Below are positions 1,387 to 14,042 of a DNA stretch of 14,180 nucleotides, piece after piece. The position numbers and the translations under genes are program-made. A model generated the notes under the pieces. That model made no database searches. It was not told the DNA's origin and was given only the letters and a program-made list of their open reading frames with translations. The DNA lies in assembly GCA_002331625.1 (NCBI GenBank), contig DCZN01000130.1, forward strand, positions 1 through 14,180, written 5' to 3'. This DNA comes from Nitrospira sp. UBA2083. Its GTDB lineage: Bacteria; Nitrospirota; Nitrospiria; Nitrospirales; Nitrospiraceae. Position 1 is the first letter of the stretch; each line of letters opens with the position of its first letter.

Positions 1387-1910
1387 ATCGGTTTCTTCTG
1401 CCACTGTCCATTTTTATCGTGGTCGTGGTGTTTCTCGGGATCGGGCTCAAACTCAATCCACGTGAAATTCCCTCTCCCTTGGTCGGAAAGGCCGCACCGG
1501 AATTCTCCCAACCGCAGCTCCTCGATCCCGCAAAGGTGTTTTCGCCGGCTGATCTCAAGGGGAAAGTGTGGCTGTTGAATTTTTGGGCCTCCTGGTGTAG
1601 CGGGTGTAAAACGGAACATCCGGTGCTCATGGACCTTGCCAAGTCTGGGGCCGTGCCGATCTATGGAATGGACTACAAAGATCAACGGGACGAAGCCATG
1701 ACCTGGTTGAGCCGGTGGGGCAATCCCTATCCGGTCGTCGGCGTCGATGACGCCGGTCGGGTTGGGATCAACTACGGCGTTTATGGGGTTCCCGAGACCT
1801 ATGTCATCGACAAGCAAGGCGTCATTCGTTATAAACAGATCGGGCCGTTGGATCCCGACACCATCGAGAAGAAGATTCTTCCCCTCGTGAAACAGCTCGA
1901 ATCACAATGA
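1383..1910 (+). CDS. ccmG: CcmG/DsbE, periplasmic thiol:disulfide oxidoreductase for cytochrome c maturation
   Basis: This is a membrane-anchored thioredoxin-fold protein of 175 residues. In the Ccm pathway such proteins keep apocytochrome heme-binding cysteines reduced before heme attachment. Residues about 4-22 form an N-terminal signal-anchor. The redox site is WCSGC (C72, C75). The segment GVYGVPETYV holds the cis-proline expected opposite the active site and is typical of CcmG/DsbE. Many CcmG proteins have WCPxC; the serine after the first cysteine is a mild departure that could shift its redox potential (inference). The start is the ATG at 1383, inside the ATGA overlap with the ccmF stop. 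The frame is open further upstream, but that stretch overlaps ccmF coding and lacks the hydrophobic N-terminus. The end overlaps ccmH, again by ATGA (1907-1910). Confidence 0.95.
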   Translation: MNRFLLPLSIFIVVVVFLGIGLKLNPREIPSPLVGKAAPEFSQPQLLDPAKVFSPADLKGKVWLLNFWASWCSGCKTEHPVLMDLAKSGAVPIYGMDYKDQRDEAMTWLSRWGNPYPVVGVDDAGRVGINYGVYGVPETYVIDKQGVIRYKQIGPLDPDTIEKKILPLVKQLESQ

Positions 1911-2371
1911 ATTGGCTGATCCTCATCATGATGCTGCTGTGGTCCGGACCGGTGTGGGCGGGAGAAGCCAGACCGCTGGCCGATGACCCTGTCGCAGAGG
2001 CGCGGCTCAAGCATCTGGCCGTCGAGTTGCGATGTCTGGTCTGTCAAAATCAAACCTTGGCCGACTCCAATGCGCCGCTGGCGGAGGATCTCCGTCGAGA
2101 AGTTCGGGAGATGATCGCCAAAAATATGAGCGACCGGGAGATCATTGAGTTTCTGACCGCCCGGTACGGAGACTTTGTGCTGTACCGTCCTCCGCTCAAG
2201 GCGACGACCAGCGTGCTCTGGATTGGTCCGTTCGTTCTCTTGACCGTGGGAGCTGTCGTGCTCGTCATCACATTGAGGCGTCGGGCTCGCAAGGTGGTCG
2301 ACGTGCCGGTAACGGAGGAGGAGCATCGTCGAGTCGAACAACTATTAGCCGAAGGAGGCAAGCGATCATGA
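1907..2371 (+). CDS. ccmH: CcmH, thiol-reducing subunit of the heme lyase complex
   Basis: CcmH is a 154-residue membrane protein of the CcmH/CycL/NrfF family. It resolves disulfides on apocytochrome c and works with CcmF. A signal peptide covers residues 1-18, with probable cleavage after VWA. The family motif LRCLVCQNQ (C43, C46) follows, then a run containing AEDLRREVREMI and a segment with FLTARYGDFVLYRPP, both characteristic of the family. A membrane helix lies around residues 100-122, followed by an RRRAR basic stretch facing the cytoplasm. The length fits the short CcmH form, with the TPR part encoded separately as ccmI next door. Both ends overlap neighbours by ATGA (1907-1910 and 2368-2371). 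Confidence 0.95.
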   Translation: MNWLILIMMLLWSGPVWAGEARPLADDPVAEARLKHLAVELRCLVCQNQTLADSNAPLAEDLRREVREMIAKNMSDREIIEFLTARYGDFVLYRPPLKATTSVLWIGPFVLLTVGAVVLVITLRRRARKVVDVPVTEEEHRRVEQLLAEGGKRS

Positions 2372-3657
2372 CAGCGACCTTTTGGGCGATCGTGTCGGCC
2401 ATGACCGCGTCCATTCTGGGACTGTTGCTGTATCCCCTGTTGAAGCGGCCTGCGCAGACAGGAAGCGAACGGGAAAAAACGCTCCCGGTGTATCGACAGC
2501 AATTCTCCGAGCTGGAACAGGATCGAGCGGATGGATTACTGACGGATGAGCAGTACCAAGCTGCGCGAAGCGAGCTGGAACGCCGTGTCCTGGAGGAGAC
2601 CACCACGGCCGAATCGCCGGCAGCAGTTGTTGGAGGGCTCGTGAATCTCCGTATGGTTGCCCTCTCGTTGGCGTTGCTCATTCCGGCTTCCAGCGGCGTA
2701 CTCTATTGGACATTAGGCAATCCGGCTGCCATGACGCACCCGGGGGTGGCATCGGCGTCTCAGGGCGGTGCCGGGGACGATGCGCAGATGGCGGATAGTC
2801 TCAATACGCTGATTGAACAGTTGAGAAAGAAGCTTGAGCAGAATCCGAACGACGCTGTTGGGTGGGGGCTCCTGGCCCGGTCGTACATGGCGATGGAGCG
2901 GTATGCTGACGCTGTGCCGATTTTTGAAAAGGCCACCAAGCTCGATCCGAACAATGCTGGTCTGCTGGCCGATTATGCGGATGCTCTCGGTGTTCATCAG
3001 GGGCGTAAGTTGGATGGAAGACCGGAGACGTTGATTCAGAAAGCGCTGAAGCTTGATCCGCACAACGTCAAAGCGTTGATGTTGTCAGGGACGATCGCCT
3101 ACAACCGAAAGGATTTTGCGCGTGCGGCCAAGGAGTGGGAGGATGCTCACGCTCATCTCCCCCCCGACGATCAGGAGTCATCCGATCAGCTGAAAGCCAG
3201 CATTGCCGAAGCCAAGCGGCGTCTCGGCGGCGGTCCCAGTATGAGCATGATGGTCGCAAATCCGCCAATGGAAGCGGCCAAGCCCGCGAAACCAGCGACA
3301 CCATCAGGACAGTCTCGTGCGATCACCGGGAAAGTGGTATTAGGGCCGAATTTCGCAGGCAAAGCTTCTCTGCCGGACACGTTATTTGTGTTCGCGAAGG
3401 ATGTCGCCGGTCCACCAATGCCGGTGTCGATTGTGCGGGCATCGAGAAAGGATCTGCCGTTTACATTTAGGCTCGATGATTCCACGAGCCCCATGCCGTC
3501 CAGGAAATTATCCGATATCGATACGGTCGTGATCGTGGCCCGGTTGTCGAAATCTGGAAAAGCGATGCCGGAAAGCGGAGACTTGGAAGGAATGAGTCAA
3601 CCGATTAAGCCGGGGGCCGAGAATATCACTGTAGTGATTGATCATGAACGACCGTAA
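2368..3657 (+). CDS. ccmI: CcmI, TPR-containing apocytochrome c chaperone of the heme lyase
   Basis: CcmI holds apocytochromes c and presents them to CcmF/CcmH. The 429-residue product has a membrane helix near residues 5-24. A cytoplasmic loop rich in charged residues follows, with EQDRADGLLTDEQY, typical of the CcmI N-terminal domain. A second helix lies near residues 92-115. The periplasmic part has tetratricopeptide-like helices (about residues 145-262), with recurring GLLARSYMAMERYADAV and KATKLDPNN type segments. An Ala/Pro/Lys-rich linker leads to a C-terminal beta-rich domain (about residues 315-429) like that of long CcmI proteins. It is the last gene of the coupled ccmFGHI set. I see no clear intrinsic terminator between its stop and the hao promoter, so some read-through into hao is possible. 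Confidence 0.92.
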   Translation: MTATFWAIVSAMTASILGLLLYPLLKRPAQTGSEREKTLPVYRQQFSELEQDRADGLLTDEQYQAARSELERRVLEETTTAESPAAVVGGLVNLRMVALSLALLIPASSGVLYWTLGNPAAMTHPGVASASQGGAGDDAQMADSLNTLIEQLRKKLEQNPNDAVGWGLLARSYMAMERYADAVPIFEKATKLDPNNAGLLADYADALGVHQGRKLDGRPETLIQKALKLDPHNVKALMLSGTIAYNRKDFARAAKEWEDAHAHLPPDDQESSDQLKASIAEAKRRLGGGPSMSMMVANPPMEAAKPAKPATPSGQSRAITGKVVLGPNFAGKASLPDTLFVFAKDVAGPPMPVSIVRASRKDLPFTFRLDDSTSPMPSRKLSDIDTVVIVARLSKSGKAMPESGDLEGMSQPIKPGAENITVVIDHERP

Positions 3658-3730: not shown

Positions 3731-3759
3731 TTGACTCTCTATGAGGGCTAAGCTATATT
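3731..3759 (+). promoter_or_regulatory. Sigma-70-like promoter for the hao operon
   Basis: TTGACT at 3731-3736 and TATATT at 3754-3759 are separated by exactly 17 bases, close to the consensus for a housekeeping promoter, in an A/T-rich stretch. Transcription would begin near base 3766. This gives a leader of about 120 bases before the start I favour for hao (3889), or about 27 bases before the alternative ATG at 3793. It is the only strong promoter match I see in the gap between ccmI and hao. Confidence 0.55.
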
Positions 3760-3870
3760 TCGCCGCCATTCTTTTTTGAGAAGTTTGTCCAAATGAGCCA
3801 AGACAAAAATAAAACAGGAAGTCCATCAAGTAAGTCTTTTTTGAAGGACAAGAGCGCACCGCCCATCAAC

Positions 3871-3878
3871 GGAAGGAG
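3871..3878 (+). promoter_or_regulatory. Ribosome binding site that decides the hao start
   Basis: GGAAGGAG at 3871-3878 is a near-perfect Shine-Dalgarno sequence. It sits 10 bases before ATG 3889 and 7 bases before the in-frame GTG 3886. The in-frame ATG at 3793 has no comparable site. A start at 3886 or 3889 places a clean signal peptide at the very N-terminus, as a periplasmic cytochrome needs. Confidence 0.7.
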
Positions 3879-3888
3879 TCAAACTGTG

Positions 3889-5586
3889 ATGGTGAAAAAT
3901 CTGGTGAAGTATGCGCTGGTGGTCTGCGGCGTATTGGCTGCAGTCCAGGCCCAGGCGAATTTCCCCACCGTGCCCAAGGAGACCTACGAGGCGCTCAAGA
4001 TCGATCGATCTGCCTCGCCGAAGGAACTGTATGAAGCGCTCCTCAAGCGCTACCTGGACCCGCAAGTCGGACAAGGGAAAGGGAAGTACGGAGACTATTG
4101 GCAACCGGTGTCGTTCAGCCGGTATTTTGATCCGCACACCTTCTATAAGCCGCCGCAAGCGGTGAAAGAAGTGGCGAGCCGTGAACAGTGCGTGAAGTGC
4201 CACACGGATGAATCGCCAGGGTGGGTGGCCGCGTGGAAGAAGAGCACCCATGCCAATCTCGATAAGATCCGCAAGCTGACCCCGAAGGATGATACCTTCT
4301 ATAAGAAGGCCAAGCTGGAAGCCGTGGAAGAGAACCTGCGTTCGATGGGGAAGTTGGGCAAGGGCGAGAAGCTGAAAGAAGTCGGCTGTATCGACTGCCA
4401 CTTTGACATCAACACCACGAAGAAGGCGGATCACCGCAAGGACATCAAGTTGGCCACGGCCGACACCTGCGGCGTGTGTCACCTGCAGGAGTTTGCGGAG
4501 CGGGAATCGGAGCGGGACACGATCACGTGGCCAAAGGATCAGTGGCCGAAGGGTCGTCCGTCTCACGCCTTGGACTACAAGGCGAACGTGGAAGTCGAAG
4601 TGTATGCCGGTATGCCGCAGCGGGAAATTGCCGATGGCTGCACCGGTTGCCACGTCAATCAGAACAAGTGCGATACCTGCCATGCGCGGCACGATTTCAA
4701 CGTCGCTGAATCCCGAAAGCCGGAAGTCTGTGCCCAGTGTCACAGTGGCGCGGACCACAACAACTGGGAAGCCTACAGCTTATCGAAGCACGGCTTGAAG
4801 TATCAGCGCGATAAAGATAAGTGGAACTTCAACATTCCGATCAAGGAAGCCATGGCCAAGGGCGCAGAAACCGCCCCGACCTGCCAATACTGCCACATGG
4901 AGTATCAAGGCAAGATTGCGCATAACATTGTGCGGAAAGTGCGTTGGGCCAACTATCCCTTCGTGCCGGGCATCCGTGAGAACATCAAGACCGAGTGGTC
5001 TGAGAAGCGGAACGATGCCTGGGTGAAGACCTGTACCAATTGCCACTCAGAGACGTACGCCCGCGCCTGGATGGAATTCATGGACAACGGGACCTTCTCC
5101 GGTCTCGATAAGTACGATGAAGCCCATCATGTCGTCGAAGAGCAGTACAAGAGTGGGCTGTTGACGGGACAGAAGACCAATCGGCCGGCTCCACCGGCGC
5201 CGGAGACCGACGGGTTTGAGAAGTTCTTCCAGATCTATTGGTCGAAGGGGAACAACCCAGCGGCCAATGAGTTGAAGCTGTTTGAAATGGCCGAAGACCA
5301 CTTGGTGCAATTGCACGTGAGCTTGGCCCACCAGTATTGGGGCTATACCTATACGGTGGGATGGGCCGCGATGAACCGCGCCTATGTGGAGATCATGGAT
5401 GACGACACGCGGCTGAAGGAGAAGCTCGATCTTCAAGCGCGTGTTGCCAAGCTTGAGGGCCAGATGAAGCATAGTCTGCTGGATCTGGACAGCGATGGCG
5501 GCAAGATCTCGCTCGGCGGGATCGGCGGCGGCATGATGCTGGCCGGGACGCTGGCGATTGCTGGATGGCGACGTAGCAAGAAGTAG
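3889..5586 (+). CDS. hao: Hydroxylamine dehydrogenase (octaheme HAO)
   Basis: HAO oxidises hydroxylamine in the periplasm during ammonia oxidation. From ATG 3889 the product is 565 residues, close to the Nitrosomonas precursor. A signal peptide (residues 1-23, cleavage after AQA) is followed by eight CxxCH heme sites with first cysteines near 101, 167, 194, 251, 261, 281, 332 and 382. The fourth (CTGCH) corresponds in order to the catalytic P460 heme. The aromatic segment [12 protein letters not shown] (481-492) holds the tyrosines among which the P460 cross-linking Tyr should lie (Y483, Y486 or Y488; I cannot say which). The C-terminus (about 541-559) is a Gly-rich hydrophobic helix followed by WRRSKK, a likely membrane anchor. 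An in-frame ATG at 3793 would add 32 hydrophilic residues in front of the signal peptide and has no good ribosome site. haoB follows two bases after the stop. Confidence 0.98.
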
Positions 5587-5588
5587 CA

Positions 5589-6629
5589 GTGCCTGTCACG
5601 TCGTCCCTGAGCGAAGCCGTGTCACAGCAGTCAGGGGCTAAAATCCTCCCGTCACTAGGTATACTCCTGGTGACGGGAGGTATTTTTCTGCTCGGATGGT
5701 TTGCCTACCTTTGGTTTAAGCCCGCGCCCCTTCCTTACAGCTATCAATTGGTTGATGAGGGTGGGATCTCAAAGTTTCAGAATCTTCCATTGCAGGCGTG
5801 GCCAGACTTAAAAATTAGTAAATATGAACTGAGAGTTCAGTCGGTCGATAAGCCAGTTGCCATTGCCTATCGCGCCAGTAAGCAGGGTGGGGCACCGATC
5901 TTATTAAACTGGGAAAATCTAGTCTCAGAACCGGTTGGATTCATAGGGGCGGATCTTTCTGAGCTGGCCACCATTGCGGCGGATCTCACCAAGCATGTGC
6001 CGAAAGAGGCTGTCATTCTGGCCTGGTGGGATCTTTCAAGGCAGCTGAGTCTCTTATCTGATCGCAATACATTATTCACGTCTCATCTGGGCCAGCCGCT
6101 CATTATTCCATCGTATTGGAAAGATCGCACCACAGTGATCGCTGACTATGAGCGACAATTTTGGGGCGCATCTGGATCCTCAGAGGAAGCACATAAATTT
6201 GAACAGTTCATCGATGCACTGTCTTCTGAAGCGAGTAAGGGCACCAGCCTACTGCGGCAGTTGGTCGGATCTCGCGAAGCCTATATCGTTGTGCACCCTT
6301 CGGATCTCTACAAGTTAGGACTGTTACGGCCAGATCGAATGGATATTGCCTTTAAAGACTTTCCATTGACGGGAAACGTCCATGGTCTTGCCAATCAAGT
6401 CAAAGCGTGGATGAAGGAAAATGATTACGATACGTATACGCTCCAATCTCTTTCTGAGAAAGTTGTCCGTGCCTATTTTTTAAACCAAAAGAAAAATGGA
6501 AAGCTCTTATTAACGCAAATGCTCCCGCTGATGAATTCTACACCTATTGATTTTGAGGCATTGCAGGCGGTTCATAAACACGGTGGCTATTGGGTGTACA
6601 AAGTCCCGGCTGCTCAAGATCCCTCCTGA
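5589..6629 (+). CDS. haoB: HaoB, HAO-cluster protein of unknown biochemical role
   Basis: The assignment rests mainly on position (directly after hao, before the c554 and cM552 genes) and on architecture: about 346 residues, one N-terminal membrane helix (about residues 21-43) and a large soluble domain that should face the periplasm. There are no CxxCH motifs, so it is not a cytochrome. The start is a GTG two bases after the hao stop, with no strong ribosome site, which suggests coupling to hao translation. The gene is visibly richer in A/T than hao and shows less codon bias, consistent with lower expression. A terminator-like hairpin lies within codons 19-31 (see 5645-5686). HaoB is known as a conserved partner in hao clusters of ammonia oxidisers, but its function is not established. 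Confidence 0.85.
   Translation: MPVTSSLSEAVSQQSGAKILPSLGILLVTGGIFLLGWFAYLWFKPAPLPYSYQLVDEGGISKFQNLPLQAWPDLKISKYELRVQSVDKPVAIAYRASKQGGAPILLNWENLVSEPVGFIGADLSELATIAADLTKHVPKEAVILAWWDLSRQLSLLSDRNTLFTSHLGQPLIIPSYWKDRTTVIADYERQFWGASGSSEEAHKFEQFIDALSSEASKGTSLLRQLVGSREAYIVVHPSDLYKLGLLRPDRMDIAFKDFPLTGNVHGLANQVKAWMKENDYDTYTLQSLSEKVVRAYFLNQKKNGKLLLTQMLPLMNSTPIDFEALQAVHKHGGYWVYKVPAAQDPS
5645..5686 (+). terminator. Terminator-like hairpin inside the start of haoB
   Basis: The arms 5645-5659 and 5666-5680 form a 15-bp continuous stem (14 Watson-Crick pairs and one G.U) closed by a six-base loop, TATACT. The stem is followed at once by TATTTTT (5681-5687). This is the form of an intrinsic terminator, 58 bases after the hao stop, yet it lies inside the haoB reading frame. 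It could act as a partial terminator or as a 3' stabiliser of the hao transcript. Ribosomes translating haoB would disrupt it. Its presence is seen directly in the sequence; the function is inferred. Confidence 0.65.
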
Positions 6630-6795
6630 GTTGTATGATCTCGAATATCAGGCTGGCAGTCAGGAAACCGCTCATGGTACACTGTTGTGACTGTACGCTG
6701 ACAATGAAGACACTTAATCAGGAACTATCAAGTATTCTGGACATAGAAGAGATCGTCGGGTACCTCATTCATACATTCATGGGAAAGGAGACGCC

Positions 6796-7524
6796 GTGAA
6801 TCACCGCATTCTTTTCGCATTTGCCGCTGTCGCGGTATTTGTATCAATGGCAGGGATAGCCTCTGCTGAAGGGACATTTGAAGGTAGGAAGAAATGTTAT
6901 AACTGTCATAAAGGTGAGGGTGAGACTTGGGACAAGACTCTACATGCTAAGGCAATGGAGTCGCTGAAGCCCAGCAGAGGCAAGAAGAAGGACGAGGCGA
7001 TGGTCAAGGCCAAGCTGGACCCCAAAAAGGACTATACAAAAGATAAGGATTGTGTTGGATGCCACGTCGATGGGTTCGGCAAGGAAGGTGGCTACATCAT
7101 CGAAGAGCCGGAAAAGTTCCTGACCGGTGTCGGTTGTGAATCTTGCCATGGAGCCGGCAGCGATTATCGAAAGATTCACCGAAAAGCCGGAGAAGCCTAC
7201 GAGAAATCACAGAAAACGATGGAACGAGCCAATCTGGTTGAAGCAGGGCAGGAGTTTGAGTTTCAGGAAAAGTGCAATGCCTGCCATTTGAATTACGAGG
7301 GGTCAGGGTGGAAAGGCGTGAAGAAACCATACACTCCCTTCACCCCAACGGTTGACAAGAAGTACTCGTTTGATTTTGAGAAGTATGTGCGAGACGACAA
7401 GGCCATGCACGCGCATTTCAAACTCGCTGGAACATTCACTGGCCCACCGACGCCGAAATTCCACGAGGAATTCCAAAAAAATGCCAAGCCGCCGGTAAAG
7501 TCGGACAAGGCTGGGGAAGAATAA
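6796..7524 (+). CDS. cycA: Cytochrome c554, tetraheme electron acceptor of HAO
   Basis: Cytochrome c554 is the periplasmic protein that takes electrons from HAO and passes them toward the membrane. The 242-residue precursor has a signal peptide (residues 1-24, cleavage after ASA). Its four CxxCH heme sites are C34 (CYNCH), C86 (CVGCH), C114 (CESCH) and C160 (CNACH). Spacing and length fit c554, a relative of the pentaheme NrfA/octaheme fold group. The start is GTG 6796, set by GGAAAGGAG at 6782-6790 five bases upstream. The 166 bases between haoB and this gene hold no convincing promoter, so it is probably transcribed with hao-haoB. The C-terminus is lysine-rich and polar. cycB begins two bases after the stop. 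Confidence 0.95.
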   Translation: MNHRILFAFAAVAVFVSMAGIASAEGTFEGRKKCYNCHKGEGETWDKTLHAKAMESLKPSRGKKKDEAMVKAKLDPKKDYTKDKDCVGCHVDGFGKEGGYIIEEPEKFLTGVGCESCHGAGSDYRKIHRKAGEAYEKSQKTMERANLVEAGQEFEFQEKCNACHLNYEGSGWKGVKKPYTPFTPTVDKKYSFDFEKYVRDDKAMHAHFKLAGTFTGPPTPKFHEEFQKNAKPPVKSDKAGEE

Positions 7525-7526
7525 CA

Positions 7527-8120
7527 ATGCCAAACCTCGGGACGTTAATCACGGGTGCAGTACTTGGGATTGGGCTGATTACCGTCGTTTTTGGCGGTGA
7601 AGCTGCCGTCTCCCGAACGGAATTCTGTATTAGTTGTCATTCTGAAATATATCCTTATGAGGAACTGAAGAAATCCTCACACTGGGGCGCTCTTGGCGCG
7701 GATCCCGGTTGTAAGGATTGCCACGTGCCACAAGGCTTCTCCAACTTCCATAAAGCCATCTACACGCACGTGGTAGACGGAGTGCCCTTCCTCATTAAGG
7801 AGTTCACTACCGACTACTCGACGGTGGAAAAATTCAATGAGCATCGCCCAGAGGCGGCATTTCGTGCTCGTATGAAGCTTAAAGAATGGGACAGTCTGAC
7901 CTGTCGGGCTTGCCATAAGAATGTGAAGGCTCCAGGTGCGTCAGCCAAAGCCGCGCATGCGAAGATGCAAAGCGAAGGCGCGACCTGTATTGATTGTCAC
8001 CAAAATCTTGTGCATAAAAAGGTGCCTGAGCATGATCTCAATGCAAGTCTTGCTCAAGGGAAGCCTGTGATCAAAGAAGTGAAGAAGAAGGCAGACGACG
8101 ACGAAGACGAGAAAGATTAG
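7527..8120 (+). CDS. cycB: Cytochrome cM552, NapC/NirT-family tetraheme quinone-interacting protein
   Basis: This membrane-anchored tetraheme cytochrome is thought to pass electrons from c554 into the quinone pool. The 197-residue protein has an uncleaved N-terminal membrane helix (about residues 5-23). Directly behind it comes the first heme site C34 (CISCH), then C62 (CKDCH), C126 (CRACH) and C154 (CIDCH). The helix placed just before heme 1 is the NapC/NirT arrangement. The last 20 or so residues are a highly charged Lys/Asp/Glu tail without heme or membrane features, perhaps for docking c554 or HAO (inference). A purine-rich ribosome site, GGGGAAG, precedes ATG 7527. It is the last gene of the hao operon, followed by a strong hairpin at 8152-8186. 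Confidence 0.93.
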   Translation: MPNLGTLITGAVLGIGLITVVFGGEAAVSRTEFCISCHSEIYPYEELKKSSHWGALGADPGCKDCHVPQGFSNFHKAIYTHVVDGVPFLIKEFTTDYSTVEKFNEHRPEAAFRARMKLKEWDSLTCRACHKNVKAPGASAKAAHAKMQSEGATCIDCHQNLVHKKVPEHDLNASLAQGKPVIKEVKKKADDDEDEKD

Positions 8121-8151
8121 TCTTCTGTAGAGGAAATCAATCGGGTCAACC

Positions 8152-8186
8152 TAAGGGCTGCATCACTAAGGGTGGTGCAGCCCTTA
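8152..8186 (+). terminator. Hairpin terminator after cycB, possibly bidirectional
   Basis: The arms 8152-8166 and 8172-8186 form a 15-bp stem with one G.U pair and a five-base loop (TAAGG). It starts 32 bases after the cycB stop. The T-run behind it is short (ATTTG), so termination may be weaker than the stem suggests. The MOSC gene ends at 8226 on the other strand, so the hairpin lies between two convergent genes and could serve both. A competing 6-bp hairpin (8182-8187 with 8194-8199) shares the right arm. Confidence 0.75.
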
Positions 8187-8225
8187 CGCATTTGTAAGGT
8201 TGTAAAGGGTACGACGATCTGATTG

Positions 8226-8957
8226 TTAGGTTGCTTTTGGTCGTCCCTCTAGCCTTGCAGTCCAATCCTCAATAGCTCCTGTCTTCACACGGCGCTCGAG
8301 CTTCGCCCTCCACCGTGAGGCGAGATACGTGCAGTCGGCAAGATCACGGGTAGCCTGCTGGTCGGTTAGGTCGTGATGCATCACCTGATTGGCTGCTGAA
8401 ACTGTCCATCGTGGAGAGGGGCGTTCAACGAGGATGAGGGAATTTCCTGCCTGCAGACGTCCTTCCCTCAGTACCCTGAAATACCACCCCGTCCGCCCGG
8501 TTTCTTGAACACGCAGGGCCAGATCTTTCGTATTCCATCGCCTTGCGAGTTTCCAACAGGGTTGTCGAGGCTGGGATATTTGAACCAGAGCTTCACCAAT
8601 TTCAAACACGTCTCCGATACAGACATCTGACTCTAAAATCCCTTCGGTCGTGAAGTTTTCTCCAAAAGCTCCTGGCTGTAGGTGGGGGAAGCCCACTGTT
8701 CGTTTCCAATAGGGATAGTGCTCAATTGGGTAGACGTTCACGGCTTTATCAGGTCCACCATGATTCACAAGATCGGCTTGGCCATCACCGACCAGGTTCG
8801 TGCGTTCTAAGAGAATCGATTCAGATACGGTATCTTTAAGGAAGCCGGTCGTCCAACTCTGATCCGTGGGGTGGCCCAATTCAACCCTGCTGACAGTCCG
8901 TGGCTTCCCAACTTGTACTGAAACAAGACGAGCTTCAACCTTGGTGTGATCGGACAT
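8226..8957 (-). CDS. MOSC-domain protein of the YiiM type (molybdenum cofactor family)
   Basis: The 243-residue product resembles E. coli YiiM along its length. Shared segments include HGGPDKAV (near residue 66), YPIEHYPYW, GAFGENFTTEG (near residue 96), GDVFEIGEALVQISQPRQPC and a C-terminal GAIEDWTARLEG. C134 in QPRQPC is the conserved MOSC cysteine expected to bind molybdenum. YiiM and its relatives use molybdenum cofactor to reduce N-hydroxylated compounds and protect E. coli against N-hydroxylated base analogues. There is no signal peptide, so it should be cytoplasmic. I start it at ATG 8957, where GGAGG lies just upstream and homology begins; the frame stays open to 9128, but that extension looks unlike the family. 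A weak extended -10 (TGG-TATGAT, complement of 8986-8994) would give a short leader. It is convergent with cycB. Confidence 0.88.
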   Translation of the reverse strand: MSDHTKVEARLVSVQVGKPRTVSRVELGHPTDQSWTTGFLKDTVSESILLERTNLVGDGQADLVNHGGPDKAVNVYPIEHYPYWKRTVGFPHLQPGAFGENFTTEGILESDVCIGDVFEIGEALVQISQPRQPCWKLARRWNTKDLALRVQETGRTGWYFRVLREGRLQAGNSLILVERPSPRWTVSAANQVMHHDLTDQQATRDLADCTYLASRWRAKLERRVKTGAIEDWTARLEGRPKAT

Positions 8958-9205
8958 GTGCCTCCAACGAAAATAATATTGCTGGATCATACCAAACAAC
9001 ACAGCGAAAGACATCGTGCAACGATGTGTGGAGCACCATGTCTTCCTGGAAATGAAACGGAATCTAACTGGTTTCAGATGAGAAATCTGAATAAATTGGA
9101 CCTTCCCTAGGGATGATGTGGTTCCCATGATGGGCTCGTAGATGTGATTCTGGCTCCTTCAAAACTTGCTCGTTGGTGTTCTTGCATCCTCTGGGCAAAG
9201 ACTTC

Positions 9206-9222
9206 TAGTCATCCAATGACTA
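9206..9222. repeat. Perfect dyad TAGTCAT-CCA-ATGACTA, candidate operator
   Basis: Two perfectly complementary 7-base arms are separated by three bases, located between two divergently transcribed genes and about 75 bases upstream of the + strand promoter. Short spaced dyads like this often bind dimeric regulators. No T-run follows on either strand, so it is not a terminator. No regulator gene is visible nearby. Confidence 0.4.
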
Positions 9223-9297
9223 ACTGCCTATTGGTGATCACGCCTCCCGAATTATTCAGGGAGCTCTACCCCAATCCTTTCTGAACCGCTGTTTCCT

Positions 9298-9326
9298 TTG
9301 ACGAACGCTGCTAGGGCCTCTATCTT
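9298..9326 (+). promoter_or_regulatory. Sigma-70-like promoter for the gene at 9393
   Basis: TTGACG (9298-9303) and TATCTT (9321-9326) are 17 bases apart. Transcription would begin near 9333, about 60 bases before ATG 9393. Confidence 0.5.
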
Positions 9327-9392
9327 TAGTTCCGGGCCACTATTGTTCGGTCAGAGATGAAGACCAATTAGAAGCCGTAACCAAAGGGCGTT

Positions 9393-9701
9393 ATGCAAAG
9401 AAATAACCAGATTCGGATTATCAGTGCCGTGTTGCTGATACTTGCTTTCACTGGGCTGCTGTTTGCATTTGAAGCAGCAGGGGCTGATCTTTCCGCTCGC
9501 CCAGCTGCCGAATTGCAACAGCAATGGAATCGCATGATGCTTGAAGGCCGCTTTGGACGGCTCTACAACGGCCAGTTTTACGAGTTCTATCAGAGAGGGC
9601 AGAGAGGGGCGAGCAACTCTGCTATTGACCCGACCACGTCTTTTTCGGACATGGCCCATGGTTGGGTACATGACGCGTACACGCCATGGGAATCGAGGTA
9701 A
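9393..9701 (+). CDS. Small exported or membrane-anchored protein, unrecognised
   Basis: This 102-residue product matches no family I know. Residues about 9-26 are a strongly hydrophobic helix after a basic N-terminus (MQRNNQIR), and AGA at 29-31 is a possible signal-peptidase site. The rest is polar, with an aromatic/glutamine-rich stretch (RLYNGQFYEFYQRGQRG) and no cysteine. The ribosome site (AAAGGG at 9383-9388, four bases away) is weak. Its last 16 bases overlap the next reading frame. This small protein could be the signal-peptide half of a longer gene whose second half is the frame at 9686, split by a real or sequencing frameshift. Equally, it may be a small gene translationally coupled to that one. 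Confidence 0.6.
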   Translation: MQRNNQIRIISAVLLILAFTGLLFAFEAAGADLSARPAAELQQQWNRMMLEGRFGRLYNGQFYEFYQRGQRGASNSAIDPTTSFSDMAHGWVHDAYTPWESR

Positions 9702-10639
9702 CTGCACTGAAAGAGCGCCGATATCTGATCAGGAGCAACGGTGGGTGGGAATTGAAAGGCGGATTGCTTCAAAGACTACACGTGGGGGAAAGCCAAATCG
9801 AGTTGTATGGCAAGACCATCACCCGTCATGAACCCTATCTAAATCCATTGCCCCACGTATGGTTCTGGAATGAGTCGTGGCAGCTGAGCCATGAATTCTT
9901 TCTCGTGTCTCGAACGAAAGCTCGTGGACCCGCAACCGTCCTTCGCCAGTGGGTCATTGCCGATGTCCATGGCGCAGGCGACCTCACTCCTCGTGGCTTA
10001 TTGGAGTACGATAACGTGTCGGACGCGCTAATGGTCACAGTAACTCACGGTCAATATGTAGGGCTGTTCAGAGAGCGAGTAAATCTTATGACAGCTTCAA
10101 CAATAGATGTGACTCGAGAAGACGCACTCAGGAGCGCCGGTGACCCGCACACCCACGAGATGCTCCTGCGGCTCATCACAACACCCATTCAGGGAGAAAC
10201 AGCGTTGCAGACCAATTTGGTGGAACATCAAGGATATGCGTCATTTGAAGAGGCGGATGGCTGGGTCAATTGGGCATTGCGGTCGAAAGAATCCATCCAG
10301 GCAGAGACGTCGCCGCGGCAACGGATCTGTGCGGGTCTCATTCGCCGGACGGAAATCAACAACGGCCGTTCGTTAGAACTCTATGCCAGGGTGAGGGACT
10401 GCGGCGGGTATACATCGCTGAAAGATTTCTTCCTGTTTCTGATCCCGAGCCCGCATGCCACAGCTATGTTGTTGCGCCACTGGACGGTGCCACGCGAGGG
10501 ACCAGGGAAGTTGTTCCAGAGGGCCTTCCTTGACTACGACTCTGGTTCAGGCCTGGCGCAGGTCCGGGTGAACGAGGGGTTTGAACCACCTACTGGTTGG
10601 GATCTCATCAAAGACGCTGTTCCAGTGCCTCTACAGTAA
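9686..10639 (+). CDS. Unrecognised 317-residue protein with an internal repeat, overlapping the preceding frame
   Basis: I do not recognise the family. Two stretches look like copies of one module, about residues 71-118 and 248-295. Both run FF-L, about 12 residues, then A-T-x-L-L/V-R-x-W, then L-x-Y-D, then a hydrophobic strand. No signal peptide or membrane helix is evident in this frame. Two cysteines (C215, C239) could form a disulfide if the protein is exported. The ATG at 9686 is the only start after the in-frame stop at 9671, has no ribosome site, and lies inside the end of the 9393 frame. It would be translated either by coupling or as the continuation of that frame after a -1 shift. 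If joined, the product would be a secreted protein of about 415 residues. It ends facing the membrane protein gene at 10793. Confidence 0.72.
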   Translation: MGIEVTALKERRYLIRSNGGWELKGGLLQRLHVGESQIELYGKTITRHEPYLNPLPHVWFWNESWQLSHEFFLVSRTKARGPATVLRQWVIADVHGAGDLTPRGLLEYDNVSDALMVTVTHGQYVGLFRERVNLMTASTIDVTREDALRSAGDPHTHEMLLRLITTPIQGETALQTNLVEHQGYASFEEADGWVNWALRSKESIQAETSPRQRICAGLIRRTEINNGRSLELYARVRDCGGYTSLKDFFLFLIPSPHATAMLLRHWTVPREGPGKLFQRAFLDYDSGSGLAQVRVNEGFEPPTGWDLIKDAVPVPLQ

Positions 10640-10691
10640 GCAAAGACCCCAGACGTTAATGGGGGAGCCTCGCCGTTTTGCTCAGCCGGAT

Positions 10692-10729
10692 GGCTCTCTC
10701 AGAAAGCGTGTGGTCCCTCTGGGAGAGTC
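10692..10729. terminator. Hairpin between convergent genes, possible weak bidirectional terminator
   Basis: The arms 10692-10703 and 10718-10729 form a 12-bp stem with two G.U pairs (as read on the + strand) and a 14-base loop, midway between two convergent genes (ends at 10639 and 10793). There is no clear T-run on either side, so it may slow polymerase or protect transcript ends rather than end transcription by itself. The rest of the 153-base gap holds nothing I recognise. Confidence 0.35.
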
Positions 10730-10792
10730 AATGCCATACTTCTCAAGGAGAAAAATAAGTTAAAGGAAAAGACCGGTGGGGTAGCGACTCAT

Positions 10793-11599
10793 TCACGAGC
10801 CATTTGTTCTCTCTAAAACATTATTTGCATTTGACCACGCATACAATCGTTTCATGCCGTTGAGAAATGGTCCTGCGCCTCCAATGGCTACGGCATCAAC
10901 CAAGCAATACCAGGCTCCTACGCCGCTGGGCGGGTTGCCCTGAGCCCAACCGAGTAGGGGGTCTATTGCAGCCCATTGCCAGGCACCGACGGCGGTGCCG
11001 ATGAGTTCGAGCCAGGTGGTAATAAAAAACGCGGCCAGGTAGACCATTGGAGAACGGCCGATCATCAGCCAGACGAGAAAAATGCAGAACAACAATGCGC
11101 CCACTGCATCACCACGGTCCGGATACCCGCTGATGCCCCACAGTGACCAGGTCCCCCATACGCCAACTACAAATACCATGATCTTTCTGGGGTGACGCAC
11201 AAAGAACCCTGATCGAGCTAAGGCTACCGCGGTAAGATACACCATTCCATGGCCCGGCGGGACGTACGCCGGCACATCCTCGAAACGGTAGGTGTATCCT
11301 CCCATGTAGATCGAGGCAAAGTACTCACCGACGGTGGCAAACAAGACGGCAATAACGACCTGGGTCCGTGTTTCTCGGTTTTCTCCGAGGAGCAGTCCTA
11401 TAAGGAAGATCCACGCCAGAATACCTAGGAGCTGTTGTTTCTCCAAACTTCCTCTGATCTCAAGGAGTAAACACACTCCAACACTGAAGAAGGTAAAACC
11501 CGCGATGACGTAATCCCGCATTCGGTGGGGCGGATGAAACATGCCTCCTTGGGGGAAATGGCGGAAAACGATACGTTCTAAGGTATGAAGCCAAGACAT
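10793..11599 (-). CDS. Multi-pass inner-membrane protein downstream of amoB, unrecognised
   Basis: The 268-residue protein has about seven to eight hydrophobic helices (roughly residues 30-47, 57-72, 80-98, 118-131, 139-156, 165-180, 183-200 and 225-242). Two halves share a pattern: a glutamate followed by Gly, aromatic-x-aromatic (GEYFASIYMGGYTYR, 91-105; LELIGTAVGAWQWA, 187-200). Each is followed by a PP-Gly-Gly-aromatic segment (VPPGHGMVY; NPPSGVGAWY). This suggests an internal duplication. The first pattern recalls motifs in carotenoid-related membrane families such as CruF/DUF422, but I cannot confirm a link. The ATG at 11599 has no good ribosome site; M20, one base behind AAGGAGG, is too close to it to be a better start. 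The gene lies beyond the amoB terminator, behind its own probable promoter. Whether it has a role in ammonia oxidation is unknown. Confidence 0.82.
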   Translation of the reverse strand: MSWLHTLERIVFRHFPQGGMFHPPHRMRDYVIAGFTFFSVGVCLLLEIRGSLEKQQLLGILAWIFLIGLLLGENRETRTQVVIAVLFATVGEYFASIYMGGYTYRFEDVPAYVPPGHGMVYLTAVALARSGFFVRHPRKIMVFVVGVWGTWSLWGISGYPDRGDAVGALLFCIFLVWLMIGRSPMVYLAAFFITTWLELIGTAVGAWQWAAIDPLLGWAQGNPPSGVGAWYCLVDAVAIGGAGPFLNGMKRLYAWSNANNVLERTNGS

Positions 11600-11711
11600 G
11601 GAGTGGGTGTTACGGATGGTGCGTCCATCTATTCATATGCCGATGGGTGATAGTAGAGGGTGCGAACTGTGTCGTCATAGAACACGGTACTCGGTTGTGA
11701 ATCGCATCGGC

Positions 11712-11740
11712 ATCATACAGGAGCACTGTGAGGTGGGCAA
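11712..11740 (-). promoter_or_regulatory. Sigma-70-like promoter for the membrane protein at 10793-11599
   Basis: Read on the - strand, TTGCCC (complement of 11735-11740) and TATGAT (complement of 11712-11717) are separated by 17 bases. Transcription would start near 11705, about 105 bases before the ATG. It lies after the amoB terminator, so this gene can be expressed apart from the amo operon. Confidence 0.45.
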
Positions 11741-11856
11741 GATCTAGCCGTTCAGATGATGTTCTGGAGTGACGCAAAGATGGAGAGTCGCTCGAGAGAG
11801 GAACTGGGGCGTGACTGAGAATGATCGTGAGTGAAAAGGAAGCAGCTACGAATAGT

Positions 11857-11915
11857 AAAAAAACAAAAACGCCGACCCGCCTGGCCATCTTACGATGGGG
11901 GCGGATCGGCGTTTT
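11857..11915 (-). terminator. Intrinsic terminator of the amo operon
   Basis: Read on the - strand, the arms (complements of 11900-11915 and 11866-11881) form a 16-bp G/C-rich stem with one G.U pair. It continues into a 5-bp inner stem (11885-11889 with 11894-11898) and is followed by T-rich sequence ending in seven Ts (complement of 11857-11863). It begins 16 bases after the amoB stop. This is the clearest terminator in the window. Confidence 0.9.
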
Positions 11916-11931
11916 GTTAGTCGCGCGTGCT

Positions 11932-13197
11932 CTAGGTTCCGAGTCTGGTGAAGACTGGGAGGACCGGAGCCGAGATTGAGTTGATGAGGCGTTCGCCGCC
12001 TTCAGTGAACGACATCAACAACCCAGCGAAGCGCTGATCTGGGTCATGGAGAATATCCACGAGCCGCTGAACTTCCCAGAGGACGTCCTTCGACTCAAGC
12101 TTAATGTCGACAGTTTGGCCCGGAAGGATGGGGGCCTCGTTGTCCAACGTCAAGCCAGCAGTTGCTACGAGTTCTGCCGGATATTCTGGATCGAGATTCC
12201 TGGCATTGCCGACCTTGTTCAGGAAGCGAATGCCTGCGGTCGTAAATTCTCCAATGCTCACCGGCTGTGTGCCGTTGTTGGTCACATGGAGATTGATACG
12301 CAGTGCACGACCAGGAACATCATACTCTGCATGGGTCACTTCAACCGCGAACGGATTCGGCTTAATCGGCAAGGGCTTGACCTTCGTCTCACCGGCTTGC
12401 AGAGGCACGCCGACCGGGTACTTGGCCTCAGTGGCCAGATACCCAACCGTCACAACAACCAGAGTGAACAGCAATACTGCTGTTCCCACCTTACGATCGA
12501 CCGGATCGAGTAGGATTTCATCTCCGTATGCTGCAAGCACGCGGGCCCGAACGAGGTACATTGGTCGGATATAGAAGAACCCAACCCAGAAGACGCCGAG
12601 GGCAATCCAGAAAATATGCCACATGACGCCCGTCATCCCACCCATTGTCTCTGACTCGAAGGTTTCACCAGTCAGTGTCTTGATCGGGTTGTTGAAGTCC
12701 TCATAACGCCCAGTGATATCCATCCACCCACCAGGTCCCGCGACCGGACCGGCTTCCTTAATGGCGAGCATGGGGTGGATATGGTGATGGCCCGGGAGTC
12801 TGGCCTTTAACTTTACCTCGTATTCATAGTCACGACCGATCTCCAGAGGGCCTGAATTGAACATCGGGGTCCCGTTCATCTTTGAGCTGAGGCGGACAAA
12901 CACCGAGCTCGGAGATCCGACGTTCAGGAAGGTGCGGTGAGGCTTGACGACCGCACGAGGCCAGTCTTCCGACAAATGGAAACTGCCTTTGAGGTAGGCA
13001 ATGTCGTTCACAGGGGTCGACTTTCCAACCCACTTCGTATCGTACCAGTTCACGGTGCGCATACGCAGAAAGGGTTCCTGCGAACGTTCACCGTGAGCAA
13101 AGGCGGGAGTAACATCAATAACCACTGGCGAGAACGCCAGAGTCGCCACCCCGCAGAATCCCAATATGAGCCGTGTAATGAGGTGTTTGGCGTTCAT
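11932..13197 (-). CDS. amoB: Ammonia monooxygenase subunit B
   Basis: AmoB is the subunit of the copper monooxygenase with two periplasmic cupredoxin domains. The 421-residue precursor has a signal peptide (residues 1-34, cleavage after AFA). This makes H35 the first residue of the mature protein, as in the PmoB/AmoB copper site where the N-terminal histidine is a ligand. The other ligands lie in the cluster GHHHIHP (H137-H141). The first cupredoxin domain is followed by two membrane helices (about 188-210 and 237-255) and the second cupredoxin domain. The product matches the usual AmoB length. The start codon overlaps the amoA stop as ATGA (13194-13197), so the two are translationally coupled; the purine-rich GGGGGGAAAG just before it is a usable ribosome site. 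A strong terminator follows the stop. Confidence 0.97.
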
Positions 13198-14033
13198 GCT
13201 TTCCCCCCAGTCGCTTTGTTACCGTGTGCCAACGTGGCATACGCGAACACATCGTACACCTTCGTGGTTTTCTGTCTGTCATCAGTCAGGTAGAAGTAGG
13301 ACGTGCAGAAGAACTTCCCAAACTGCCACCAGAGGACATACATCAGTGAGGATGCAAACGCCGAGAAGAAGGCCGAGATCATGGTGCTGTGACCACCGAA
13401 GGTACGCAGCGAACCGACCTCGATCATCCGGATGTACTCAGGCGTTCCGGTACGGACGTACATGAAGCCCATGTAGTCAGCCCATGACAGCAAGGTACCG
13501 TCGACCACGATCGGTGTATGGCTGTATCCGAAGATCGGCCAGTTGCTTGGGTAAAACAGGATTGCATACATCCATGCCCCGATCACTGCGGTCAAGGTCC
13601 AGTTTCTAGTCAATAACAGCGTGATATCGAGGACCAGTGCACTGGGAATCAATGTCGCAGGCATGACGAAGTTTGGTGGATAGTTCGACCACCACCACCA
13701 GGATGTATAAACGGCCACCCATTTCCCAAAACCCAACGCCAGAATGGTGAGCGTTGCACCGAATGGCTGCCGATAGTTCACCCAATTATAATACTGGAGA
13801 GCTGCGCAGAAGGTGATTGTTGTAACCGGCGTGACGATTGGCCACCACTGCCGGTCTTTCCAATCAATCCAGAAATCCCAGTCCCCACAGAGGAGAGCTG
13901 TGTGCATGTGGAAGGTCCCGACGATCGTGACGAACAAGATCGGGAGGAAATAAATGTGATCGATATGCCTGGACATTGCAACGCCTTCAGGCGGCAATTT
14001 CGAGGCCTTAATGATTTCATCGGTTCTAAACAT
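13194..14033 (-). CDS. amoA: Ammonia monooxygenase subunit A
   Basis: AmoA is the integral membrane subunit of ammonia monooxygenase, which oxidises ammonia to hydroxylamine. Family hallmarks are [63 protein letters not shown] and [11 protein letters not shown], spread over about seven membrane helices. The N-terminus ([17 protein letters not shown]) and segments such as [14 protein letters not shown] differ from betaproteobacterial AmoA and fit the comammox Nitrospira type. I choose the ATG at 14033 (279 residues), because GGAGG lies nine bases before it; the ATG at 14042 directly abuts that site and would add only three residues. amoC is expected upstream but is not in the window. Confidence 0.98.
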
Positions 14034-14042
14034 AACTGACAT

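Follow-up and report, generated by a model that had tools for sequence, protein, structure and literature searches.

A recurrent membrane protein gene, orf268, in a probable clade A comammox Nitrospira ammonia oxidation locus

In comammox Nitrospira, the genes for ammonia monooxygenase (AMO), hydroxylamine dehydrogenase (HAO) and the associated cytochromes (CYC) are co-located, and the two operons point the same way in Ca. N. nitrosa, whereas those of other species converge (PMC12903955). Named exceptions aside, all amo and hao genes of comammox genomes are clustered with type I cytochrome c biosynthesis (ccm) genes (PMC6311188). We analysed one entire contig of 14,180 bases from Nitrospira sp. 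UBA2083 (DCZN01000130.1; hereafter the window), which is contig C21 of a 4.44 Mb, 137-contig genome (G000) of 89.5% completeness. The window shares with the described clade A cluster its genes, their co-location and convergence, and the adjacent type I ccm genes. It differs in that the window alone has an extra, split gene between orf268, which encodes a polytopic membrane protein, and a gene for a YiiM-like MOSC-domain protein. Co-location and convergence of the core are already known, and in this respect the finding is ordinary; the most interesting part of the locus is orf268.

The core locus and its host

On the plus strand, a partial ccmF is followed by ccmG-ccmH-ccmI-haoA-haoB-cycA-cycB, and this row converges on amoA-amoB on the minus strand (Table 1). 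Read inward from the right end, the minus strand carries amoA, amoB, orf268 and the MOSC gene, with a plus-strand gene of approximately 1.25 kb separating the last two. Matches to Pfam and NCBIfam families confirmed the gene content, order and strands first described in a sequence-only reading of the window, as well as the approximately 3.8 kb between the facing hao and amo clusters (cycB stop at 8120, amoB stop at 11932). The 'four or five' intervening genes of that reading are really three: the MOSC gene, one frameshift-split gene and orf268. As assignments by homology, the family scores of the locus genes exclude chance. HaoA matched the HAO structures 6m0p and 1fgj in the PDB at E < 1e-250 and aligned nearly end to end with 6m0p, a solved aerobic HAO; the aligned region includes the C-terminal TYT..GW..MNRAYVE stretch, which we take to hold the P460 cross-linking tyrosine.

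The sequence-only reading had also proposed a comammox Nitrospira host, and the AmoA tree together with the presence of the nitrite oxidoreductase subunit NxrA in the same genome supports this. The tree comprised 37 of 98 AmoA rows, with clade labels taken from AmoA identity and from two record titles, Rifle_cladeA (L065) and Rifle_cladeB (L070). The 24 rows labelled clade A, window included, fell on one side of a branch with a Shimodaira–Hasegawa approximate likelihood ratio test (SH-aLRT) support of 94, just below 95. Clade B was separate (SH-aLRT 100), and both the methanotrophs and a genome resembling betaproteobacterial ammonia-oxidizing bacteria (beta-AOB-like; G411) stood apart, such that the window AmoA sits among clade A rows and not with beta- or gammaproteobacterial oxidizers. 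Window AmoA was 81–95% identical to Nitrospira clade A loci (best 95%, including L034, Nitrospira sp. UW-LDO-01), 58–62% to clade B, 60% to G411 and 45–49% to Methylococcales-type methanotrophs. In the HaoA tree (40 of 42 rows), the window belonged to a group (support 99) of 35 rows that are more than 80% identical to its HaoA. RSF5 (L079) combines an AmoA of clade A type with a HaoA that groups with clade B (95); such grouping of HaoA with clade B has already been published for clade A2 (PMC9714041). NxrA was found on contig C67 of the source genome, with 1258 bits to 7b04 over the 936 residues read. One record titled uncultured Nitrosospira (L035, CAADGK010000026.1) has its AmoA within Nitrospira clade A, and its name looks wrong.

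Comammox AMO and HAO genes are closest to betaproteobacterial ones (PMC6311188), which could suggest that the source is a proteobacterial ammonia oxidizer or that the contig is foreign to the bin. However, the AmoA identities (81–95% to Nitrospira clade A versus 60% to G411), the AmoA tree, the presence of NxrA in the source genome and the occurrence of AMO in 49 of the 79 genomes of the genus make this explanation exceedingly improbable. Judged from its sequence, the locus as a whole is almost certainly the module by which a clade A comammox Nitrospira turns ammonia into nitrite.

One point weighs against this reading: amoC was found only as a fragment elsewhere in the genome. Because the window is an entire contig, ccmF is truncated on its left and amoC is missing on its right, where the sequence stops 138 bp past amoA. 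This piece of amoC, with a run of N before it, forms the extreme end of contig C28 (L155) and could supply the head that the window's amo operon lacks. Other comammox genomes carry additional amoC copies (PMC6311188), so that the join is tentative. No family match to amoD or amoE was found in the window contig, the rest of the genome having had no dedicated search, and no PmoD-like match was present in the 7 kb examined of contig C28.

Comparing gene order, we found that the arrangement recurs across clade A. Twenty-three genomes of the genus had AMO and HAO matches on one contig (with haoA in pieces in G024 and G036), and the orientation was convergent in 20 and tandem in 3. The order amoA-amoB-orf268-MOSC-cycB-cycA-haoB-haoA-ccmI-ccmH-ccmG was repeated in L056, L059 and L156, and it extends to haoA in L075 and to haoB in L094, where those loci end. 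This recurrence also bears on whether the entire region could be a recently acquired mobile island, an idea to which some credit is lent by transposases lying ahead of the AMO genes in certain comammox genomes (PMC12903955). None of the 16 Pfam-scanned open reading frames (ORFs) is a mobile-element gene, however, no tRNA was found in the window, and the GC content of 1-kb windows, which varies between 0.47 and 0.59, shows no step at the cluster edges. These observations give no support to a recent mobile island, which we consider very unlikely.

A few loci of the genus depart from the common pattern. In L067 (12635–13685), haoA lies in pieces directly beyond amoB, without haoB, cycA or cycB. 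G024 (contig C35) also has neither orf268 nor the close form of the MOSC gene defined below, and the L067/G024 pattern looks like a deletion or misassembly. The AMO contig of G036 holds degenerate haoA pieces (C202:24165–25880; approximately 60% identity, several stops), which may be left over from an HAO since replaced, and an intact haoA of 94% identity is on C10. A divergent second amoA occurs in JAMMSM_CMX_2 (L069; 72% identical) and in G042 (C133), where the copy has an internal stop.

orf268 within and beyond the genus

The orf268 protein falls outside the Pfam and NCBIfam families. Its best Pfam match (E 0.097) is below the cut-off, the window protein has no NCBIfam match at 0.01 (the best E among 28 members being 0.004), and a sequence search of the PDB gave no match at E 1. 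The AlphaFold2 (AF2) model is helical, with a mean predicted local distance difference test (pLDDT) score of 71.7, and a Foldseek search of the PDB with this model returned no relative at E < 0.001. Homologues numbered 2051 at E <= 0.001, and the homologues listed are the best 120 of these.

Within Nitrospira, the suggestion of the sequence-only reading that the genes between the operons travel with the pathway held for two of the three genes. We divided the 79 genomes of the genus into 62 with AMO or HAO (contig-end HAO fragments being counted as HAO) and 17 others. orf268 was present in 56 of the 62 and in 2 of the 17 (Fisher p 1e-9, uncorrected for kinship), and a close form of the MOSC gene, for which we chose a cut-off of >180 bits, in 53 of 62 versus 2 of 17. 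The third, split gene did not follow the pathway, its sole full match being the window's own. For orf268 and the MOSC gene, the two exceptions are the same genomes, G051 and G057, in which the contig concerned measures 6.3 kb and 5.3 kb, respectively. G051 is comammox, because its orf268 contig also bears amoB, cycB, cycA and haoB; the orf268 contig of G057 bears AmoD-like matches.

The linkage is physical as well. In 48 of its 58 carriers, orf268 lies at most 6 kb from amoA or haoA (in G061 by way of a contig-end fragment); nine of the remaining ten have no amoA or haoA match on the orf268 contig, and in one the distance is 15 kb. The gap between orf268 and the MOSC gene is at most 420 bp in 46 of the 47 genomes that have both on one contig. 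The window, with 1,667 bp, is the sole outlier, because its extra split gene lies between them.

Outside clade A, the position of orf268 changes. It is usually on the amo side in clade A, after haoA-haoB-cycA-cycB in clade B and the beta-AOB-like genome, and with PmoD-like and cupredoxin-like genes in methanotrophs. Five of six clade B genomes searched contained it, one match being partial: in L174, L175 and L176 it comes next after cycB on the same strand at 0.3–0.5 kb, in L177 it is beside a cycB fragment, and in L178, the partial match, it has other neighbours. G411 has three amoA copies and a consecutive haoA-haoB-cycA-cycB-orf268 row on one strand, with orf268 within 0.3–0.5 kb of cycB; we call this genome beta-AOB-like because of these two features and its place in the AmoA tree.

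Among four chosen proteobacterial genomes with AMO/PMO-family genes, orf268 was present in two, both Methylococcaceae. In G085, G086 and G337, it is followed by genes for a VTT-like protein (below the Pfam cut-off), a cupredoxin-like protein and a PmoD-like protein; all three Methylococcales-type loci thus have orf268 and a PmoD-like gene in one cluster. The PmoD-like neighbour matched 6cpd weakly (E 0.0039). In each of two comammox loci, L033 and L065, it also matched a tandem array of three genes; two genes of each array bear the cysteine motif published for AmoE or AmoD, and the third does not. The tie to the PmoD/AmoD copper proteins (PMC6189053; PDB 6cpd) is thus through a weak PmoD relative next to methanotroph orf268, whereas the orf268 product, a polytopic membrane protein, is no homologue of PmoD. 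The VTT-like/cupredoxin-like/PmoD-like cluster (L172, L173, L199) recurs, without orf268, near Cycloclasticus monooxygenase genes (L085, L087–L090).

Window orf268 was 66–70% identical to the Methylococcales-type proteins, 62% to that of G411 and 59–65% to those of clade B. The best orf268 tree placed the methanotrophs nearest comammox (94/89), and an approximately unbiased (AU) test did not reject the AOB-like row as nearest (p 0.107). Relatives of 51–55% identity occur in L200 (G289) and L201 (G159), whose genomes are without the Pfam family PF02461; the neighbours in L200 are Tex, HopJ-family and inositol monophosphatase genes, which have homologues in L201.

We also took an even sample of 369 genomes from the gammaproteobacterial class of G086, with G086 as its centre, chosen for having both orf268 and PF02461. 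orf268 was present in 8, PF02461 in 11 and both in 5 (Fisher p 4e-7; 9e-6 without G086); G411 is among these five. orf268 is neither universal nor exclusive among bearers of AMO or particulate methane monooxygenase (pMMO).

Taken from this pattern of neighbours, orf268 may encode an accessory protein of bacterial AMO/pMMO or HAO that has so far gone unrecognised, serving as an assembly, copper-loading or electron-coupling partner; we put this forward tentatively. It is also possible, to a degree that calls for similar caution, that the orf268 and MOSC genes are both passengers without a role in ammonia oxidation, kept beside AMO and HAO by block movement and inheritance. Linkage inside one genus is expected from common descent, and several observations weigh against an accessory role. 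orf268 was missing from one of the six clade B genomes, from the Methylocapsa and Cycloclasticus genomes searched and, in the gammaproteobacterial sample, from 6 of the 11 genomes with PF02461. Three of the eight carriers in that sample (G159, G289 and G398) are without PF02461, and two of these show housekeeping neighbours. In six further Nitrospira genomes, orf268 and the MOSC gene are on separate contigs; one is G049, an assembly of only 9 contigs, in which orf268 is with amo and the MOSC gene with hao, clearly apart. The close MOSC form was not found in the six clade B genomes searched, which gave only a weak match of 32–37%, and it is therefore not general to the pathway.

Passenger status sits less well with the way in which orf268 adjoins the hao cluster of clade B, that of the beta-AOB-like genome and the PmoD-like cluster of methanotrophs. 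Nor would it readily account for the window being 66–70% identical to Methylococcales-type genomes in orf268 and 45–49% in AmoA/PmoA, or for G062 and G017, which keep the orf268–MOSC pair despite distances of 19 and 46 kb between AMO and HAO. An accessory role for orf268 could have escaped notice: without a Pfam or TIGRFAM model, the gene is easily overlooked and invisible to neighbourhood analysis based on these collections, and the published PmoD neighbourhood analysis relied on PFAM and TIGRFAM families.

The MOSC gene, the split gene and other features

YiiM of E. coli reduces 6-N-hydroxylaminopurine to adenine (PMC3831636). The window protein shares with this reductase (PMC5818509; PDB 5yhh, 5yhi and 1o65) the MOSC domain, the three-helix domain and the invariant cysteine, which aligned with that of gsYiiM and ecYiiM. 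It scored 130.2 bits for MOSC and 35.6 bits for YiiM_3-alpha (Pfam cut-off 22.7 each) and matched 5yhh at 1e-53. Unlike YiiM, it is encoded between the amo and hao operons, and it scored below the equivalog cut-off of the NCBIfam 6-hydroxyaminopurine reductase model NF008577 (167.9 versus 294 bits). We name it only YiiM-like for the latter reason, and the shortfall speaks against equating the two functions. The true length is approximately 243 amino acids (aa); the 300-aa ORF reaching to 9128 is mostly unconserved before residue 52–68 or so, and the majority of strong MOSC matches begin at residues 52–68. Whether the protein reduces N-hydroxylated bases or other N-hydroxyl adducts derived from hydroxylamine is a proposal on which our judgement is evenly balanced. 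Its role in hydroxylamine-making cells would most likely be nucleotide-pool protection.

The split gene belongs to a family of nine proteins among 5.8 billion, the window's own included. Five relatives of 406–424 aa are unbroken and span both ORFs, which we therefore regard as one gene; three relatives are shorter. The frame breaks near codon 100. In the 79 genomes of the genus, the only full match was the window's own, accompanied by two weak partial matches. The AF2 model of a relative has, at low confidence, an N-terminal helix and two beta-rich parts, and it gave no PDB match. We think it probable that the gene is a strain-level insertion, likely decaying and outside the pathway. Alternatively, the living cell may carry an unbroken gene, with the frameshift introduced by an assembly or base-calling error. 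Single frameshifts are a usual error in draft assemblies, and the five unbroken relatives point the same way. However, an identical 317-aa product is listed with two contigs, the longer of 219,430 bases (P0121), so that the frameshift may be real, although both contigs may derive from the same sample or reads. On balance, we find such an error unlikely.

A further ORF at 11610–11888 had no Pfam or NCBIfam match, and among the 96 loci compared only the window's own copy matched; it is therefore probably not a gene. The true start of haoA is possibly 3889, immediately ahead of a signal-peptide-like stretch.

Table 1 Features of the window, with coordinates, strand and basis of assignment
Feature	Position	Strand	Basis
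ccmF, 3' part, truncated by contig end	1..1386	+	Pfam CcmF_C, 466 bits
ccmG, thioredoxin-like	1434..1910	+	Pfam Redoxin, AhpC-TSA; named from position in ccm cluster
ccmH	1907..2371	+	Pfam CcmH, 8.8e-52
ccmI	2368..3657	+	Pfam Ig_CycH, TPR_CcmH_CycH
haoA, octahaem hydroxylamine dehydrogenase	3793..5586	+	Pfam Multi-haem_cyto, 2e-137; 8 CxxCH motifs
haoB	5589..6629	+	NCBIfam TIGR04392, 350.9 bits (cut-off 200)
cycA, cytochrome c554	6796..7524	+	NCBIfam NF043010, 415 bits (cut-off 400); 4 CxxCH motifs
cycB, cytochrome cM552, NapC/NirT type	7527..8120	+	Pfam Cytochrom_NNT, 6e-43; 4 CxxCH motifs
YiiM-like MOSC-domain protein, 243 aa	8226..8957	-	Pfam MOSC and YiiM_3-alpha
Secreted beta-rich protein gene, frameshift-split (ORFs 9393-9701 and 9686-10639)	9393..10639	+	Relatives of 406–424 aa
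orf268, polytopic membrane protein	10793..11599	-	No Pfam or NCBIfam family
amoB	11932..13197	-	NCBIfam AmoB_BACT NF041640, 543 bits (cut-off 336)
amoA, clade A	13194..14042	-	NCBIfam AmoA_BACT NF041557, 362 bits (cut-off 290); AmoA tree

Proposed pathway and meaning

AMO, formed by AmoA, AmoB and an AmoC encoded beyond the contig edge, would convert ammonia to hydroxylamine. HAO would then oxidize the hydroxylamine, with electrons passing through c554 (CycA) and cM552 (CycB) to the quinone pool, and the adjacent ccm genes would provide for haem attachment. These steps are established for the respective families, and we infer them here from homology. Between the two convergent operons that flank them, the accessory genes could contribute in two ways: the MOSC protein may clear N-hydroxyl adducts arising from hydroxylamine, and orf268 may aid the assembly or copper loading of the copper membrane monooxygenase, or couple this enzyme with the redox chain of the membrane.

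The presence of the YiiM-like gene suggests a means by which clade A comammox bacteria guard against damage from hydroxylamine, encoded next to the very pathway that produces this compound. As to its core, the locus extends a known picture by one genome; what may be significant is orf268. Recurring beside AMO, HAO or PmoD-like genes in comammox clade A, comammox clade B, a beta-AOB-like genome and methanotrophs, orf268 offers a concrete candidate for testing.

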